From: an uncultured Desulfobacteraceae bacterium | Lineage (GTDB): Bacteria > Desulfobacterota > Desulfobacteria > Desulfobacterales > UBA5852 | Direction: 5' to 3' | DNA: 64,000 nt | NCBI GenBank assembly: GCA_913060875.1 | Contig: CAJXSL010000001.1 | Coordinates: 372,001-436,000 of the forward strand | In this document: positions 18,243-47,603 of the stretch, one piece after another | Layout of the letters: every line of letters begins with the position of its first letter | How positions within the stretch are numbered: the stretch's first letter is position 1 | Made by a program: the position numbers and the translations under genes | The notes under the pieces: generated by a model | What the model saw: the letters and a program-made list of their open reading frames with translations, nothing else | What the model was told of the DNA's origin: nothing | The model's database searches: none

Positions 18243-18769
18243 CCTCCCTCAACGATGCGCCCGCGGCAGGCGGACGGTTGCTCCTCCAGTTTCTAACCAG
18301 TCCCGGCGCCGTGCTGATATTGCTGCGGATCGGAATAGGAGCGATGCCGCGTTTTCGTTCGCAGCCTATCGTTTGGAGGGCGCGAACGCCCTTCTTGAGA
18401 TAGCTTTTTAAATCATCGGCCCTTAACCCGGATATTCCACGCGTTCGAGATGTCCATTGGCAAGGCATCAGGGGCGCCGCTGTACTTCTGCTACCGCAAG
18501 CGCCTGATAACGCCGCCAAGGAGCATCTCGGGCGCGCCGTAAGGTGAAATTTTATCTGTCTTTTTGGAAATCGACGCAGGTTACAAACTGTCACCGGAAA
18601 ACCACACCTCGAACAGCGCTTATGTCACCGATATGTTATCATAAAATTTATTGTGAAAAAATTTCATGAAATATTCGGGTTAACAAGCCGGCATAAGTGC
18701 TTATGATCTCCTGTATAGTTCAAGACACTCAAGCAACCTCAATCTTCCACTAACAATGGAGCCTCTGCA
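18243..18769. other. 526-bp intergenic region holding a long palindromic repeat
   Basis: Between the SDR and flavin-oxidase genes. Positions 18425-18682 are the compound form of the seven-copy repeat described separately. The first 180 bases show no gene. The last 85 bases would hold the promoter of the next gene. Confidence 0.6.
18425..18682. repeat. Dispersed palindromic element A, copy 1 (long form)
   Basis: Starts AACCCGGATATT and runs through the shared core (GGCATCAGGGGCGCCGCTGTAC ... CTGATAACGC, interrupted here) to GGTGAAATTTT at about 18553. It then continues about 130 bases to a second end TTCATGAAATATTCGGGTT. The outer ends are inverted copies of each other. Similar long copies occur near 44971 and 54971. 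Confidence 0.8.
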
Positions 18770-38675: not shown

Positions 38676-39145
38676 GATGTTTGGTCCTATATAGTGTCCA
38701 TCCATAAATGGCATCTTTTGGCCCCGATCGGCGTCAAGCGTATGCATTCGGATTCGACCCGAATGGTCGGGTTGAAACCCACCACATGACAGTTTCAATC
38801 TGGATGTAAAACAACCGCCGTTGCGGGTCAAGCACGTACGTAATTCACGATCGGATGGCTCGACAGGTTCTGCCGCCGTGGTTAAGATAAGGCTATAAGA
38901 TTCCCTGCGGACCAACCTGTCATCCGGCAACGCGAATTTTTCTCCCTGTGTTTCCGATTCCGGACAACCCCTGGCGTTGTAAAGCGGATCTCTTCTTTTC
39001 CGAATCACTGAATCGGATTTTTCGGTCTCCCTTTTTTGTCTGAACTTCAAGCGATGCGTTGTGATCTTCAATGCTGACAGCATTTCTATCGGATCATTGC
39101 CCGGACAGGGAATCCCCATCCGACCGTCAGCGGAGCAACCGATCC
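38676..39145. other. 470-bp divergent intergenic region
   Basis: Between the unknown helical protein and the acyl-CoA enzyme. At 38708-38734 it holds a half copy of palindromic element B3 (GGCATCTTTTGGCCCC ... CGGCG, matching 41587 onward), without a clear matching right arm. The last 150 bases are T-rich on the plus strand and would carry the promoter of the next gene. Confidence 0.45.
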
Positions 39146-41050
39146 ATGCCAGCCAAACGCAACCCAAAGGATCCGTGGCGAAAACTGGTGTCCCCGCCGG
39201 AGAAGATCCTCAACCGCATCCGCCCGGGCATGCGCATTTTTCTCAGCACCGGTCTGGCGGAGCCCCGAAGCTTCGTCAAGGCTCTTATGACGACGTCCAC
39301 GGCCAACCTGACGGATCTGGAACTGATCCAGCTGGTCAGCCTCAGCGACGTGATGGCGCCACAGGCCCTGCGGGGGCAGAAATACCGTCTGAAAACCTTC
39401 TTCCCGGGCAAATCGGCGCACGGGCGCATCACCGAAGGCTCGGTGGACCTGATCCCCAGCCGTTTCGGCCGCATCGCCTCCCTGTTCCAATCCGGCCGCA
39501 TCGCCGTCGACGTGGCGGTATTGCAGGTCACGCCGCCGGATGATTCCGGATACTGCAGTTTGGGGGTGTCCGTGGACGTGGGGCGCATTGCCATGTCCCA
39601 GGCCGCCCTCAAGATCGGCGAGATCAATCCGCGGGTGCCCTGCACCCTGGGCGACACGCTGGTTCCGGTAGACGAGTTCGATGCCCTGATGGCCGGCGAG
39701 GCGCTGCCGCCCTACCTCCGGCGGCCGACGGTCGACCGGGTGCATGCCATGCTCGCCGCCAACGTTGCCGATCTGGTGGAGGATGGCAGTTGTATGGCCT
39801 TTTCTTTCGGCCCGCTCTACGAGGCACTGGCAGTCCATCTGGCCACGCGGCGTCATCTGGGCGTGCATTCGCCTTTTATGACGGACGCCCTGATGGACCT
39901 GATCGCCTCCGGGGCGGTCAGCAATCGCCGCAAGGAGGTTTTCCAGGGACGCTCGGTGGCGGCTTATGCCATCGGCACCAAAGCCCTCATGACCTGGCTC
40001 GACCGCAACCCCCTGGTGGAGTTCCAGACCATCGAGCGCGTTTTCAATCCGGCCACCATTGGCCGCAATCCGCATTTCGTGGCGGTCTACCCGGTCAAAG
40101 CGGTGGATATTTCCGGTCAGGTGCTGTTGCGGGCCGGCGAGCGTTATGCCGGCACCGGTTCGGCCGAAGTACTCGATTTCTGCAGCGGGGCCGAAATAGC
40201 CCCCTTCGGGCGCAGTATTTTTGCCCTGCCCAGCCGCAGTCCCGCCGGCCGGTCGAACATCCGGGTGAGCGTGGCCCGGGGCCGCCACCCCTTCGGGCTC
40301 AAAGGCTCGGTCGATCTCGTGGTCACGGAGTTCGGCGTGGCCGACCTGGGCGGGCGCACCGTAAGGGAACGGGCCCAGGCCATGATCGATATCGCCCATC
40401 CGGATGACCGCAATGCCTTGATCGAAGCTGCCAAAGCGCGCGGGGTTCTCTATCACGACCAGATTTTTCTGCCCGGCAGCGCCCGGCTGTATCCTTCCGA
40501 AATCAGTTTCAGCACCACCTTCAAGAACGGTCAGGACATGCGGTTTCGCCCCATTCGGCCCTCCGACGAGGAGGGCATGCGGCGGCTTTTCTACCGGTTC
40601 TCCGACGAAGGCGTCTATTCGCGCTATTTCACCCCCCTGCGGAGCATGCCCCATGGACGCATGCAGCAATATGTCAATGTGGACTGGACCACCACCATGG
40701 CCATCGTGGGGTTGGTGGGCCCTCCCGGGCAGGGGCGGATTGTGGCCGAAGGGCGCTATATTCGTGATCCGCATCACCCCATGGCCGACCTGGTTTTCGT
40801 CGTGGACCCGGACCACCAGGGGCTCGGGGTCGCCTCCTACATCTATCGTCTGCTGATCGACCTGGCCCGTCAACGCGGTATCAAGGGGTTTACGGCGGAA
40901 GTTCTTTTCTCCAACCAGGCCATGATGAAAGTTTTCCGCAAAGGCCCCTTCCCGGTGCAGGCGGTTCTGGACAGCGGCATCTATTTTCTGACCATTCCCT
41001 TCGAAGCCGATCTGCCGTCCCTGGGGCCGCCTTATGCAGCGTCGACGTAA
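39146..41050 (+). CDS. Acetyl-CoA hydrolase/transferase fused to a GNAT domain
   Basis: 634 residues from MPAKRNP (GGAG upstream; a longer start at 39071 is possible). Residues about 1-440 are a CoA-transferase family I acetyl-CoA hydrolase/transferase (IRPGMRIFLSTGLAEPRSFVKAL, QVTPPDDSGYCSLG, the glutamate-bearing ERVFNPATIGRNP region, VVTEFGVADLGG). Residues about 450-610 are a GCN5-type acetyltransferase (FRPIRPSDEEGMRRLF, VDPDHQGLGVASYIY). This fusion is known in several Proteobacteria. It would interconvert acyl-CoA and acids, with an acetyl-transfer module of unknown target. Repeat A copy 2 starts inside its stop codon. Confidence 0.9.
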   Translation: MPAKRNPKDPWRKLVSPPEKILNRIRPGMRIFLSTGLAEPRSFVKALMTTSTANLTDLELIQLVSLSDVMAPQALRGQKYRLKTFFPGKSAHGRITEGSVDLIPSRFGRIASLFQSGRIAVDVAVLQVTPPDDSGYCSLGVSVDVGRIAMSQAALKIGEINPRVPCTLGDTLVPVDEFDALMAGEALPPYLRRPTVDRVHAMLAANVADLVEDGSCMAFSFGPLYEALAVHLATRRHLGVHSPFMTDALMDLIASGAVSNRRKEVFQGRSVAAYAIGTKALMTWLDRNPLVEFQTIERVFNPATIGRNPHFVAVYPVKAVDISGQVLLRAGERYAGTGSAEVLDFCSGAEIAPFGRSIFALPSRSPAGRSNIRVSVARGRHPFGLKGSVDLVVTEFGVADLGGRTVRERAQAMIDIAHPDDRNALIEAAKARGVLYHDQIFLPGSARLYPSEISFSTTFKNGQDMRFRPIRPSDEEGMRRLFYRFSDEGVYSRYFTPLRSMPHGRMQQYVNVDWTTTMAIVGLVGPPGQGRIVAEGRYIRDPHHPMADLVFVVDPDHQGLGVASYIYRLLIDLARQRGIKGFTAEVLFSNQAMMKVFRKGPFPVQAVLDSGIYFLTIPFEADLPSLGPPYAAST

Positions 41051-41263: not shown

Positions 41264-41289
41264 GTGGCGAAAATTAGATACAGGTATAC

Positions 41290-41505
41290 GGTTCCTTTCG
41301 CAGGAACGAGGCCTCCTTCGAACGCCGCAAACGTTTCGATGGGGCCCGAAGAGGGAAGCCGGCGCAATTCCGGCACGGACCCGCCGCTGTGAGTGCGGAC
41401 GAAAACCCGAACATGCCACTGGGAGGCAGGGCTGTTGACGCAGCCTTCCGGGAAGGCCGGGTGACTAGGACGATGCACGAGTCAGAAGACCTGCCGCATA
41501 CCCCA
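41290..41505 (+). promoter_or_regulatory. Cobalamin (B12) riboswitch
   Basis: All conserved blocks are present in order: GAGGGAAGCCGG, AATTCCGGCACGGACCCG, CCGCTGTGAG, the B12-box core GCCACTGGG, GGGAAGGCC, and the end GAGTCAGAAGACCTGCC. This is the classical aptamer that binds adenosylcobalamin and lowers expression of the downstream gene when B12 is ample. An intrinsic terminator follows at 41534-41571. The next gene is the SSS symporter at 41759. Confidence 0.95.
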
Positions 41506-41533
41506 ACATAAAACCTGGACGGAGAAGGTAAAT

Positions 41534-41758: not shown

Positions 41759-43654
41759 ATGATGGGTGGATTGCAGATGTTTCTGTTGATGTTGGCCGTT
41801 TATCTTGGCGTGCTGGTGGGGATTGGTTTGTATTTCAACCGGCGGCAACGCTCTGTCACGGATTTCTGGCTGGCCGGGCGCAGGGTGGGGGCGGTGAACA
41901 CCGGTTTTTCGGCTGCGGCATCCTGGCTGACAGCCGGCGCCATCCTGGCGGTGATCGGGTTTTTCATGCTCAACGGCATGGGGTCGGTCTGGGGGTTCGT
42001 GGCCCCCAACATCCTGGCCCTGCTGATCATCGCCCTGTTGGCCAAACGCCTGAAACGCCTGCCGGCCATCACCCAGCCGGAACTTCTGGAACTGCGCTAC
42101 TCATCTGCGGTCCGGGCACCGGTGGCCGTGATCATCACCATCGTCATGATCCTGTTCGCGGTGGCCGACATCAAGGGATTCGCCTTTCTATTGCAGGTCT
42201 ACTACGGATTGAGTCCGGTCTGGGCGGCGGTCATCGTGGCCCTGGCCGTGTCAGTTTACGTGACCCTGGGGGGCTTTTCCGCCGTCGTATGGACGGACAC
42301 CCTGCAGTACCTGCTGCTGGCCGTTTTTGCCGTCGCCCTGGCCTTTGTGGCCGCCGATGCGGCCACCATGGCTCCTGGTTCCGGGGATGGCATCGGCGCT
42401 TTCCAGACGTTGATGGGAACGGCGCCCGACGGTTGGTGGAATCCGCTGTCCGTCGGGGTTCCTGCGGCCCTGATCTTTTCCCTGGCCATTATTCCGGGTT
42501 GGGTCACCGAGCAGGATCCCTGGCAGCGGGTGTGGGCCGCCCGGAACGCTGCTTCGGCCCGCATCGGGATGACGGTGGGCGCCCTGCTGATCATGGTGGT
42601 GTTTTCCGCCTGTGCGATCATTGCCCTCAGCCTCAATCGCATCTACCCGGAGATTGCCGCCCTGGGGTTCCCGGCCGGCATGGCCAAGGCCGAGCCCGCT
42701 CTTCTGAATTTTATCACCAGCGGCCGGTTTTCAGCCTTTGTGGTGGCGCTGACCGCCATCGGCCTTGCGGCGGCGGCCATGTCCTGCGCCGACACCTTTG
42801 CCACTTCGGGTGCGTCCTGCCTGTCGCGTGACATCTACCAGCGGTTTATCAAACCGGAGGCCACCATGGCCGAGATGCTCATGGTAAACCGGATCAGTGT
42901 CCTGGTGATCATCCTGTCCGCCACGGCGGTTTCCTTTCTTATCGACAGCATCATCGATGCCATTCACATCGCCACCTTCATCGCCAGCGCGGCCTGTTTT
43001 TTTCCCCTCATGGGCGGGATTTTCTGGAAACGGGCCACCCGGGAAGGGGCCATGGCCGGCCTGATGACCGGGGCCACCGTTCAGATTCTGCTGGTGGGGG
43101 CGGATTTGGCCCGCACCGCACCCATGGCGCCGCCCTATCTTGAGACCATCAGTCCTCTTCTGATGGGGCACGGCATCCTGGTGGGCATGGGGTTGAGTGC
43201 GGCCGCCTACGTCGGCACCAGTCTCCTGACGCCAGCGCCGGAACCGATCCGCCTGGCCCCCTTTTTCGGGGATGAAGCCCAGAGCCTGGCGGCGGCCAAT
43301 GCCGCGGCGACCGAGGCGCCTGCGTCGGCTCCCGAGGCCTTTGCCGGGGAACTGACCTTCAAGCCCAACGGGGAACGCACCCTGATCCAGGCCAGCCTGC
43401 GCAACGGCCGGCCGATCCAGTGGCAATCACTGGTGGCGCGGCTGAAAAAGGCCCATCCGGCCTGGGTCAACCCGGGCGGGTTCGATGCGGTCTATCGATT
43501 GACCGATCCGGATCTGTTGGGGTGCGTCATGATCACCCGCGGCCGGACCGCGCACGAAATCTGGCTCCAGGCCGAGCCCAGAAACCCGATGGCGTCCGTT
43601 CGCCGGGTGGAGTTTGTGAGGGCCTACCGGGAATTGGAGGCGCTGCTGGTATAG
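41759..43654 (+). CDS. SSS-family Na+/solute symporter under B12 control
   Basis: 631 residues with about 13 membrane helices, AAGGAG five bases before the ATG. Family signatures include SVTDFWLAGRRVGAVNTGFSAAASWLTAG-type core segments, LGGFSAVVWTDTLQYLLL, the GWVTEQDPWQRVWAAR segment, and AMSCADTFATSGASCLSRDIYQRF. The C-terminal 120 residues are soluble and unlike plain SSS transporters (ELTFKPNGERTLIQASLRNGRP, FDAVYRLTDPDLLG), a likely regulatory domain. The B12 riboswitch upstream suggests uptake of cobalamin, a precursor, or a solute needed when B12 is scarce. The substrate is inference. Confidence 0.9.
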   Translation: MMGGLQMFLLMLAVYLGVLVGIGLYFNRRQRSVTDFWLAGRRVGAVNTGFSAAASWLTAGAILAVIGFFMLNGMGSVWGFVAPNILALLIIALLAKRLKRLPAITQPELLELRYSSAVRAPVAVIITIVMILFAVADIKGFAFLLQVYYGLSPVWAAVIVALAVSVYVTLGGFSAVVWTDTLQYLLLAVFAVALAFVAADAATMAPGSGDGIGAFQTLMGTAPDGWWNPLSVGVPAALIFSLAIIPGWVTEQDPWQRVWAARNAASARIGMTVGALLIMVVFSACAIIALSLNRIYPEIAALGFPAGMAKAEPALLNFITSGRFSAFVVALTAIGLAAAAMSCADTFATSGASCLSRDIYQRFIKPEATMAEMLMVNRISVLVIILSATAVSFLIDSIIDAIHIATFIASAACFFPLMGGIFWKRATREGAMAGLMTGATVQILLVGADLARTAPMAPPYLETISPLLMGHGILVGMGLSAAAYVGTSLLTPAPEPIRLAPFFGDEAQSLAAANAAATEAPASAPEAFAGELTFKPNGERTLIQASLRNGRPIQWQSLVARLKKAHPAWVNPGGFDAVYRLTDPDLLGCVMITRGRTAHEIWLQAEPRNPMASVRRVEFVRAYRELEALLV

Positions 43655-44035: not shown

Positions 44036-44842
44036 CTAGTCCTGAAACAGCCGTTCGATTTTTCGGCGGCCGGCCGGGCTCAGTCCCAGCGAATCGATTT
44101 CGCGGGATAGCTGCTCCAGGGTGCCGTAGCCGCCGACATAGCCGTTCAGACGGGCTGCGGCGGTGGAATCCACAATGTCCTGGTGCCGGGGATACATCCG
44201 CGACAGCTCCCGCATCAGGTCCGCCTCCCGTTTCAAGATGTATTTCTGGTGGTAATCCTCGGCCGGGGTGAAGGACCGCAGGGGAAGCACCTCGGTGCGC
44301 ACGGGTTGGCCGAGCCTGCTCTCGACCACGGCTTGGGATGCCAGGGCATGCTGCTGCTGTTGGTCGTCATGATAGAAGACGGCATGCAGGTACTGCCGTT
44401 TCCAGGACGGGCTCGTGGGTTGGTGACTCGCCCAGAAAAATGCCAATAAATCCTCGTAGCTGATGCGTTGGGGGTCGAAGTCCACCTGCACCGTTTCGGT
44501 GTGGTCGCCCATCTGGCGATAGGTGGGGTTGTCCATGCGCCCGCCGGCGTATCCCACGCGGGTTCGTATGACCCCTTCGATAGACCCGAACCGGGCCTCG
44601 ATGCCCCAGAATCAGCCCAGGCCGAAGGTGGCCGCGTCCAGGGTTTGCGGTGCCGACGCATCGATAGGGGGAATCTTGCCCGGTGAAAGGGGGGCAGGGG
44701 AATCAGATCTCATGACGGTCTCCTGTTGTTCGGCAGGGCCAAGGGTTCCGGTTTCCGGGGTCGGGGAACAGCCTGCCACGGCCCAAAACACGGCCAGGAC
44801 GAAAACGCGCCATATGGCTGTTCGGATAGCCTTGCGTCTCAT
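44036..44842 (-). CDS. msrA: Selenocysteine-containing MsrA lipoprotein
   Basis: Read as one 268-residue gene through an in-frame TGA at 44612-44614. Before it lie a signal peptide with lipobox AVAGCSPT, a linker, and AATFGLG; after it FWGIEARFGSIEGVIRTRVG and GYAGG, then the full MsrA fold (YRQMGDHTETVQVDFDP, FWASHQP, EDYHQKY). The TGA sits exactly at the catalytic cysteine of the GCFWG motif, so it most likely encodes selenocysteine. A bacterial SECIS-like stem (AGGCCCG-GTT-CGGGTCT) starts 14 bases after the TGA. It reduces methionine sulfoxide in envelope proteins. AAAGGAT precedes the ATG at 44842. A simple nonsense mutation is the alternative. Confidence 0.88.
44582..44598 (-). promoter_or_regulatory. 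Candidate bacterial SECIS hairpin
   Basis: Seven-base stem AGGCCCG/CGGGTCT (one G:T) with triloop GTT. The loop lies about 20 bases 3' of the UGA, within the 16-37 base window known for bacterial SECIS elements. The loop begins with G, as the SelB-binding consensus asks. Confidence 0.65.
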
Positions 44843-44970: not shown

Positions 44971-45426
44971 AGCCCGGATATTTCACGCGTTCGCGATGTT
45001 CATTGGACGGCATCAGGGGCGCCGCTGTACTTTTGCTACCGCAAGCCCCTGATAACGCCGCCAAGGGGCATCTCGGGATCATAAGGGTTCCAGGCGTCAA
45101 GGGGGCAAGGATCCAAGTGAAATACTAAAAAATTACAAAGAATGGCAAGGGTGGCAAAAAGCATATGCGCTTTGTTTGCATCTATATAGTGTATCGAAAC
45201 GTTTTCCAAAATTAGCAGTGGAAATTGGGTCAATCGAGCGAATGCTGAAAGCCCTGATTAAATCTCCAGAGAACAAACACTTGGCCACTTGAATCCTAGA
45301 CCCCTTGGACCCTTTCTCCCAACTAATTGGGAGAAGAACCGAAAATTATTACCCGAATAGATTTTATACCCCTGAATATGGGCTTAAAATTAATTGTGTA
45401 GAAAAAATTTCATGAAATGTTCGAGA
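44971..45426. repeat. Palindromic element A, copy 3 (expanded long form)
   Basis: Core from AGCCCGGATATTTCACG to GGCATCTCGGGAT (about 45087), then about 270 unrelated bases, then the tail found in copies 1 and 6 (TACCCCTGAATAT ... AAATTTCATGAAATGTTCG) ending near 45425. The GGTGAAAT junction seen in the other long copies is missing, as if rearranged. Confidence 0.65.
45314..45335. terminator. Perfect 9-bp hairpin within repeat A3
   Basis: TTCTCCCAA and TTGGGAGAA pair perfectly around CTAA. No T tract follows directly. It may be a remnant of an inserted palindrome rather than a functional terminator. Confidence 0.4.
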
Positions 45427-45623
45427 TAGGCGGTCTCGCCGGGTACTTTCCATTAAAGTTGTCCCCCCATTTGCCGATAAATGGTTAACCCTTTGCCAGG
45501 ACGCCCTAACCGATGTGCCCTGTTTTGCCTGGGGAAGGTGCACCTGAGTAGCTGGCTTGTCCTGCGGTTGGCATGCCGGAGGGCTACATCCGAGTCGAAA
45601 CGATATCCGTCGAAGGAATGCGA

Positions 45624-47603
45624 ATGGCTTTTGATCCCCAGAATATCCGGATTTTATTGGTTGAAGATACGGCGGTCATGCGGAAAATCGAAATCAAGAC
45701 CCTGAGGGCGCTGGGGTTTGACGGCGTCCTGGAGGCGGTGGACGGCGATGAAGCCATCGGCATCCTCCAGGGGGGGCTTAAGGTCGACCTGATTATCAGC
45801 GACTGGAACATGCCCAACAAGGACGGCTACGCGCTGCTGTGCTGGGTCAGGGACAATGTGGCCACCGCCTCCATCCCGTTTTTGATGGCCACCGGCCAGG
45901 GGGATAAAGCCCAGGAGAAAAAGGCCGTGGATGCCGGGGTCAACGCATTTGTGGCCAAGCCTTTCAACGAAGCGGAACTCCAGGCCAAGATCGACGAAGC
46001 CCTCGGCCTGACGACCTCTGAGGATGAAACTGCGGGCCAATCCCGGGGACCGCGTGAGATTGTCAACGGCCGCGTCAAGCTAAAGGTCGCCCATATCCAG
46101 ATTACCGATCACATTATCCTGGGGGTGCTCAAACACCTCATCAAAAAGGGCGAACTGCAGCCCCGGCATTTCGAGCTGGAGACCGTCTGCATGCCCGGGT
46201 GGAATCCGGTCCAGAACGCCCTGGAAAAAGGCGAGGTGGACGCCGCCTTCATCCTGGCACCCATCGCCATGGACCTGTACAGTTTCGGCACGCCCATCAA
46301 GCTGACCCTCCTGGCCCACAAGAATGGCAGCATTTTTGTGCGCAACAAACGCGAGGGATATGTCGAACCTTTTGCAGACCACTTTCGCAACCAGTCTTTC
46401 TACATTCCGCACAAGATGTCCGTCCATCACATGCTGGCCCATTTGTTTTTCAGCAGCATCGGGTTGACGCCCGGCATGGTGGGGGAGGGGCAAAGCGATG
46501 TGAACTTCGAAGTGGTGGCCCCCATCAAGATGCAGGAATTTATGCAGGGCAACCCGGCGACCGCGGGATTCATGGTGGCCGAGCCCTTGGGTACCAGGGC
46601 CATTGCCGGCGGGGCGGCCGATTTGCAGTTTTTGAGCAGCGAACTGTGGGAAAACCATCCCTGCTGTGTCGTGACCATGCGGGATGATTTTATCGAACCT
46701 CATACGGATGCGGTTTACGAGTTTACCGAGATGCTGGTGGAAGCCGGCAAGCTCGTGGACCAGAAGCCCGAGATGGCCGCCGAAATCGGTGTGGCCTTCC
46801 TGGATCCCGATAGAACGTTGGGACTGAAAGTCCCGGTGCTGAAAAACGTGTTGAGCGAGGCCAAAGGCATCAAAACCGGTGATCTCTACCCCGCCGCCGA
46901 AGACCTCAAAACCATGAACGATTACATGGTGAAACGGATGCGCATCGGCGGCCAGGTGGACATGGACCAATTCGTCGATACCCGTTTTGCCGATGCGGCC
47001 TGCAAGGACAGGGTGTCCAGTAACCTTCCGGCATATTTGCATATTGCTGACAATACTGCGGTGGATTTGCTTTCACGCCACGCCTGCCTGGCCAAAGGCG
47101 AGGACAAATCCATGCTGAACCTGGAGGGAAAATACCTGACCTTCAGCCTGGACGGCCAGCAATACGGTCTCGATATTCTGCGTATCCGGGAAATCATCGG
47201 CATGCTGCCCATCCGCAGCATTCCCCAGACCCCGCCCCACGTCCGCGGCGTGATCAGCCTGCGGGGGCGCACCATTCCGGTCGTCGACCTGCGGACCCAA
47301 TTCGGTCTGGGGGCCGTGGCCGACGACGGCCGCAGCTGCATCGTGGTGCTGGAATCCGGACATGGCGACACGGACTTGTCGGTGGGTGTGGCCGTCGATT
47401 CGGTCTCCGAGGTGCTGACGATTCAGTCCACCCATATCGATCCCACCCCCGGCTTCGGTGCCCGCGTCGATACCCGCCACATCCTGGCCATGGCCAAGAC
47501 GGAAGACGGCATCCGCCTGTTGCTGGATATCGACCATATTTTTCAGGAGGGGGAACAACTCACCCAACTGGCCTTGCCGACCGAGACCGCCGATGCGGCT
47601 TGA
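45624..47603 (+). CDS. CheY / substrate-binding-like / CheW triple fusion
   Basis: 659 residues from the ATG at 45624 (AAGGA seven bases upstream). Residues about 6-128 form a complete receiver domain: acidic pair E14-D15, phospho-acceptor D60 in IISDWNMP, T90 and K112 in VAKPF. Residues about 150-465 resemble NMT1/SsuA/NrtA-type solute-binding proteins (VKLKVAHIQITDHIILGVL, GEVDAAFILAPIAMDLYSFG, AEPLGTRAIAGG) but have no signal peptide, so the domain is cytoplasmic. Residues about 515-645 are a CheW domain (YLTFSLDGQQYGLDILRIREII, VRGVISLRGRTIPVVDLR). No chemotaxis gene is adjacent. Inference: a soluble sensor that links a small ligand and a phospho-signal to CheA arrays. Confidence 0.87.
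   Translation: MAFDPQNIRILLVEDTAVMRKIEIKTLRALGFDGVLEAVDGDEAIGILQGGLKVDLIISDWNMPNKDGYALLCWVRDNVATASIPFLMATGQGDKAQEKKAVDAGVNAFVAKPFNEAELQAKIDEALGLTTSEDETAGQSRGPREIVNGRVKLKVAHIQITDHIILGVLKHLIKKGELQPRHFELETVCMPGWNPVQNALEKGEVDAAFILAPIAMDLYSFGTPIKLTLLAHKNGSIFVRNKREGYVEPFADHFRNQSFYIPHKMSVHHMLAHLFFSSIGLTPGMVGEGQSDVNFEVVAPIKMQEFMQGNPATAGFMVAEPLGTRAIAGGAADLQFLSSELWENHPCCVVTMRDDFIEPHTDAVYEFTEMLVEAGKLVDQKPEMAAEIGVAFLDPDRTLGLKVPVLKNVLSEAKGIKTGDLYPAAEDLKTMNDYMVKRMRIGGQVDMDQFVDTRFADAACKDRVSSNLPAYLHIADNTAVDLLSRHACLAKGEDKSMLNLEGKYLTFSLDGQQYGLDILRIREIIGMLPIRSIPQTPPHVRGVISLRGRTIPVVDLRTQFGLGAVADDGRSCIVVLESGHGDTDLSVGVAVDSVSEVLTIQSTHIDPTPGFGARVDTRHILAMAKTEDGIRLLLDIDHIFQEGEQLTQLALPTETADAA

Follow-up and report, generated by a model that had tools for sequence, protein, structure and literature searches.

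An msrA frame interrupted by a single TGA codon

The window, which is the whole stretch of 64,000 nucleotides analyzed here and comes from a bacterium related to the sulfate reducers, carries on its minus strand an msrA gene whose frame runs from an ATG at 44842-44840 to a stop at 44038-44036 and is interrupted solely by a TGA at 44612-44614. The read-through product comprises 268 residues and shows the TGA at the position of the catalytic cysteine of MsrA proteins (G-TGA-FWG), which agrees with an earlier sequence-only reading of this DNA that had described one frame split by a single TGA, with the strand left unstated. The features of the locus are the following:

44036..44842, minus: msrA selenoprotein gene, 268 codons with ATG start and TGA codon 77 as Sec, based on the read-through translation
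44768..44842, minus: predicted lipoprotein signal, residues 1-25 (MRRKAIRTAIWRVFVLAVFWAVAG/C with Ser at +2), based on the hydrophobic stretch and lipobox; low-confidence in the model
44639..44767, minus: linker from the lipobox Cys to the catalytic domain, ~43 residues, mostly disordered (pLDDT 40-57 for residues 21-50)
44216..44638, minus: catalytic MsrA domain, approximately residues 69-209 (Pfam PF01625), no Cys after Sec
44612..44614, minus: in-frame TGA at the catalytic nucleophile (GUFWG), residue 77, based on sequence and orthologue comparison
44577..44601, minus: bacterial SECIS hairpin, based on an RNAalifold consensus, covariation in 37 genes and a synonymous-codon control
minus: parts of the SECIS, namely a core stem of 44592-44597 with 44583-44588, the loop GUU at 44589-44591 and a UCGA/UCGA lower stem outside the core
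44036..44215, minus: C-terminal helical domain of the Sec-MsrA subfamily (PF20939), helices in the AlphaFold model

The ATG at 44842, which has an AAAGGA upstream, is the likelier start. The longest frames on either side of the TGA are 94 residues from a TTG, as given before, and 173 residues from a GTG rather than 174. The MsrA likeness claimed for both halves holds for the downstream half, which alone matches PMSR (5.4e-39) and MsrA_helical (1.9e-8), whereas the upstream 76 residues gave no match to Pfam and contain the lipobox FWAVAGC/SPTP. Because of these downstream matches, standard annotation would probably report a truncated MsrA and not, as had been expected, two hypothetical fragments. 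Gene callers cut Sec-MsrA proteins at the TGA, whereby the export signal is lost.

The read-through protein matches PMSR (Pfam PF01625) with an E-value of 1.9e-43 and 148.8 bits against a curated cut-off of 23.7, includes the GUFWG motif, and matches MsrA_helical (PF20939, 3.4e-8), a family described as covering the helical domain found in selenoprotein MsrA and seen at E 0.001 in the window protein and 28 of 41 aligned rows. Its AlphaFold model has a pLDDT of 87 overall and above 90 across both domains, and the top PDB match of this model is 4lwj (TM 0.90 by target, rmsd 2.3). The nearest solved relatives by sequence are likewise all MsrA of Clostridium oremlandii (CoMsrA; E ~1e-52 over residues 66-256). 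The active-site residues of CoMsrA are Tyr47, Glu55, Gln89, Tyr90, His137 and Tyr140 (PMC4333827). An alignment with 7c13 reveals that the active-site and substrate-binding residues (Tyr, Glu, Gln-Tyr, His, Tyr) are all kept in the window protein, and the substrate-binding residues are invariant across the 41 rows. No resolving Cys follows the Sec in the window protein or in 46 of 58 Desulfobacterota Sec rows. We filed the window protein as a member of the CoMsrA-type Sec-MsrA subfamily.

Several other elements were noticed around the gene. The window holds seven copies of an 82-bp interspersed repeat (at 44978-45059 and near 18491, 41100, 51195, 52807, 55037 and 61379) that has at least 40 copies in the genome; the distance from msrA to the copy upstream of it is about 135 bp. 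A cobalamin riboswitch (41272-41512, plus strand, 105.5 bits) is located upstream of a Na+:solute symporter gene (41759-43654). The plus-strand gene at 45573-47603, upstream of msrA, encodes response-regulator receiver, NMT1-like solute-binding and CheW domains in one protein of unusual architecture, which is kept at 82% identity in the nearest relative (L023), the only one of 11 relatives to share it within about 5 kb. At 39071-41050 (plus strand), an acetyl-CoA hydrolase/transferase is fused to a GNAT acetyltransferase domain.

Probable decoding of the TGA as selenocysteine

The genome (5.88 Mb, 99.7% complete) contains selA (616 bits), selB (355.6 bits), selC (75.6 bits) and two selD genes, both above cut-off, so that all four components whose search had been proposed are present. 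Each selD gene itself has an in-frame TGA near the N-terminus (L141 and L142 on contigs C7 and C15, with the contexts GUASK and GUAAK). When 389 genomes of the order were searched and matches were taken down to E 1e-66, exactly one TGA was found at each of 52 full orthologous places in 51 genomes. All 28 matches among 395 genomes searched across the phylum carry TGA, one of them two, and the further 26 full orthologous places beyond the order have one TGA in 25 cases and two in the remaining one. In those orthologues whose sequence was fetched, the TGA is the GUFWG codon. Close relatives thus have TGA and not Cys, their downstream frames are intact, and pN/pS between relatives is about 0.2-0.45, which indicates purifying selection on the msrA sequence. 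One copy (G025) is without the active-site part, its open frame beginning after it, and is seemingly a decayed gene. Sec-MsrA was also seen in one Verrucomicrobia and one Planctomycetota MAG (L068 and L039), with S in place of G directly before Sec in L068.

The putative SECIS lies just after the TGA, with its GUU loop 20 nt from the TGA on the 3′ side and a G at the loop start. Folded as a single sequence, this hairpin does not exceed shuffles in stability (z -0.1 to -0.7), hence its support comes from comparison. Given 37 Sec genes from Desulfobacterota and Bacilli, RNAalifold returned unaided one hairpin of 6 bp with the loop GUU, in which 94% of the cells are paired and both bases vary in the pairs 18:32, 19:31 and 23:27. 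The covariation score of 0.470 compares with 0.185 for shuffled alignments, none of 500 reaching it, and with at most 0.14 for slid controls. Since the hairpin stretch is coding, we used synonymous-codon recoding as a further control: of the 29 Desulfobacterota Sec genes, 25 have all six core pairs (simulated mean 2.3, maximum 8), as do 9/9 Bacilli Sec genes (simulated 0.02), but none of 28 Cys homologues does, which is at the recoding expectation. The hairpin hence goes together with the TGA in these alignments, and the stem with a G-first loop suggested from the sequence is consistent with a bacterial SECIS. No Rfam model detects it; the only match, Mu-gpT-DE at E 0.42, was discarded as a chance match. 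Sec-MsrA with the covarying SECIS occurs among Bacillaceae, including Halalkalibacter, Evansella, Litchfieldia and Sediminibacillus (L035, L048, L049, L051, L052, L057, L058, L061 and L064), and Cys forms are found alongside in Planococcus, Terribacillus, Domibacillus and Paenibacillus.

An ordinary Cys-MsrA gene turned into a pseudogene by a nonsense mutation or a sequencing error might look similar at first sight, as TGA is one base off TGC and TGT and a second MsrA, an MsrAB fusion, is present in the genome and could make a loss tolerable. Such an origin is nevertheless hardly credible in view of the same-codon TGA in dozens of independent genomes, which already refutes it, together with the purifying selection, the covarying hairpin and the complete Sec machinery. 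A reassigned UGA, or its decoding by a near-cognate tRNA for Trp or Cys, has nothing to recommend it beyond the in-frame TGA, and the confinement of a single TGA to the nucleophile as well as the presence of selC and the SECIS leave it a negligible chance. Since the sel genes are present, the full orthologous places all carry TGA and the hairpin both covaries and is Sec-specific, msrA is very probably a functional selenoprotein gene and not a decaying one, with selenium predicted in its product; the assignment as Sec-MsrA made from the letters is thereby supported.

Export signal and history of the subfamily

The N-terminus MRRKAIRTAIWRVFVLAVFWAVAGC satisfies the rule with a basic n-region, a hydrophobic stretch and a lipobox with Cys (VAGC/S, Ser at +2), and lipidation is predicted, in line with the lipoprotein signal previously seen in the upstream part. 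From this signal we infer membrane anchoring and a periplasmic location of the window protein. Applying the same hydrophobicity and lipobox rule to the N-termini of 55 distinct Desulfobacterota Sec-MsrA genes gave a hydrophobic signal in 50, 21 of those with a lipobox. Three of the five rule-negative orthologues (L131, L147 and L157) possess twin-arginine-like stretches just below threshold, L024 has a lipobox and no good in-frame start codon, and L030 shows no clear signal. Counting Tat-like or cut-off signals, some export signal is apparent in about 54 of the 55. Outside the phylum no signal was found in 36 of 37 homologues, the one exception resting on a doubtful start, and the Bacilli relatives and the solved CoMsrA are likewise without one. 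Predicted export is thus conserved in the phylum, and the lipid anchor is not universal. The gene of L028, from the culturable relative Desulfosarcina alkanivorans PL12, carries the lipobox LWSC. The other MsrA of the genome, the Cys MsrAB fusion, begins with the signal-like stretch MRNLIIAIVAAGAVLLGIQSV, so that both MsrA proteins look exported.

It is conceivable that the Sec codon is real and translation starts internally after the signal region, which would leave the hydrophobic stretch untranslated and the product cytoplasmic. An internal ATG at residue 44, the orthologue L030 and the just 15 residues ahead of Sec in the solved relative fit such a start. We consider it improbable, however, as lipobox, plain and twin-arginine-like signals recur at one place despite sequence divergence, about 54 of 55 orthologues having one, and recurring signals of differing make are the pattern expected of selection for export. 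An exported window protein remains our preferred reading.

A tree built from 129 MsrA rows groups the CoMsrA-type proteins in a single clade (100/99) with 70 Sec and 27 Cys members, in which Sec is basal. Each of these Cys rows falls inside one Bacilli clade (100/100) that also holds nine Sec rows, and CoMsrA, which has a long branch, is placed within the Desulfobacterota rows. Because the Cys rows are nested in a clade containing Sec rows, Sec looks ancestral and Cys derived in this subfamily, a direction that is likely and not proven, as the bootstrap is unsettled and some rows are long. The subfamily hence looks like a Sec-ancestral case against the usual Cys-to-Sec trend as given in PMC1794560. 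We lean slightly towards a broader scenario in which the exported Desulfobacterota Sec-MsrA would be basal and would have carried Sec from the start, with a periplasmic reductant reducing the selenenic acid without a resolving Cys, while the cytoplasmic Firmicutes forms, Sec and Cys alike, would be derived by signal loss and the Bacilli Cys forms also by Sec-to-Cys reversion.

Proposed function and relation to known Msr systems

The window protein is very probably an exported and lipid-anchored Met-S-sulfoxide reductase with a Sec nucleophile that is recycled by an outside thiol. SelB and Sec-tRNA would read the TGA as Sec, and the chain would be exported and lipidated at Cys25; a Ser at +2 and no Asp would direct it to the periplasmic face of the outer membrane. 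There, Sec may attack the Met-S-sulfoxide of exported proteins, yielding a selenenic acid that an outside thiol would reduce. With no Cys after Sec (1-Sec type), an outside periplasmic reductant would be needed, and our guess is that exported thioredoxin-fold proteins beside CcdA/DsbD-type carriers are the likeliest donors. At two loci, an exported thioredoxin-fold protein (WCSYC on C13, CVPC on C1) is encoded beside a DsbD_TM gene; they are candidates only, without a tie to msrA, and the failure of thioredoxin to reduce CoMsrA counts against a simple thioredoxin route here. No Sec-glutaredoxin of the kind known from C. oremlandii was found as a partner, the genome's three glutaredoxin matches all being without TGA, and the two short ones examined have no evident export signal. 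Across 11 relatives, no neighbour of msrA up to about 5 kb away proved conserved, and none indicates a reductant. The family NF041383 (Trx_VPGUxxT_two, NCBIfam) was rejected, as it matches in this genome only at the two MsrA genes and stays below cut-off there.

That bacteria have Sec-MsrA with GUFWG is established (PMC13188914, PMC9312934), and the enzyme type as such is already known, while the phylum-wide exported branch appears undescribed before. We found no description of an exported or lipoprotein Sec-MsrA in the part of the literature that was searched, and on this ground regard the branch as probably new by location. The subfamily's biochemistry derives from one cytoplasmic enzyme with glutaredoxin. 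If the Desulfobacterota kin do act outside the cytoplasm, anaerobes would spend selenium on the repair of exported proteins and a periplasmic route reducing a 1-Sec enzyme must exist.

A Sec-MsrA of a deltaproteobacterium, Syntrophobacter fumaroxidans, was listed in 2006 as a table entry that itself makes no mention of export (PMC1794560). SpMsrAB2 of Streptococcus pneumoniae resembles the window protein only in how it works, as an extracytoplasmic Msr whose redox partners Etrx1 and Etrx2 are described as surface lipoproteins of the thioredoxin family (PMC3914529). It differs in being a Gram-positive fused MsrAB outside the CoMsrA-type subfamily. To our knowledge, SpMsrAB2 is not known as a selenoprotein.

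The only characterized relative, and the one characterized bacterial Sec-MsrA, is CoMsrA (Clostridium/Alkaliphilus oremlandii, PDB 4LWJ), which is reduced by glutaredoxin and not by thioredoxin, outpaces its Cys version 20-fold, requires the helical domain and can dimerize via its nucleophile (PMC4333827, PMC4479559). Both proteins share GUFWG, a Sec nucleophile with no other Cys (1-Cys type) and a C-terminal helical domain, with 41% identity and a TM-score of 0.90 by target. They differ in that CoMsrA relies on glutaredoxin for its recycling, has 15 residues before Sec and lacks a signal, whereas the window protein begins with a predicted lipoprotein signal followed by a linker of about 43 residues.
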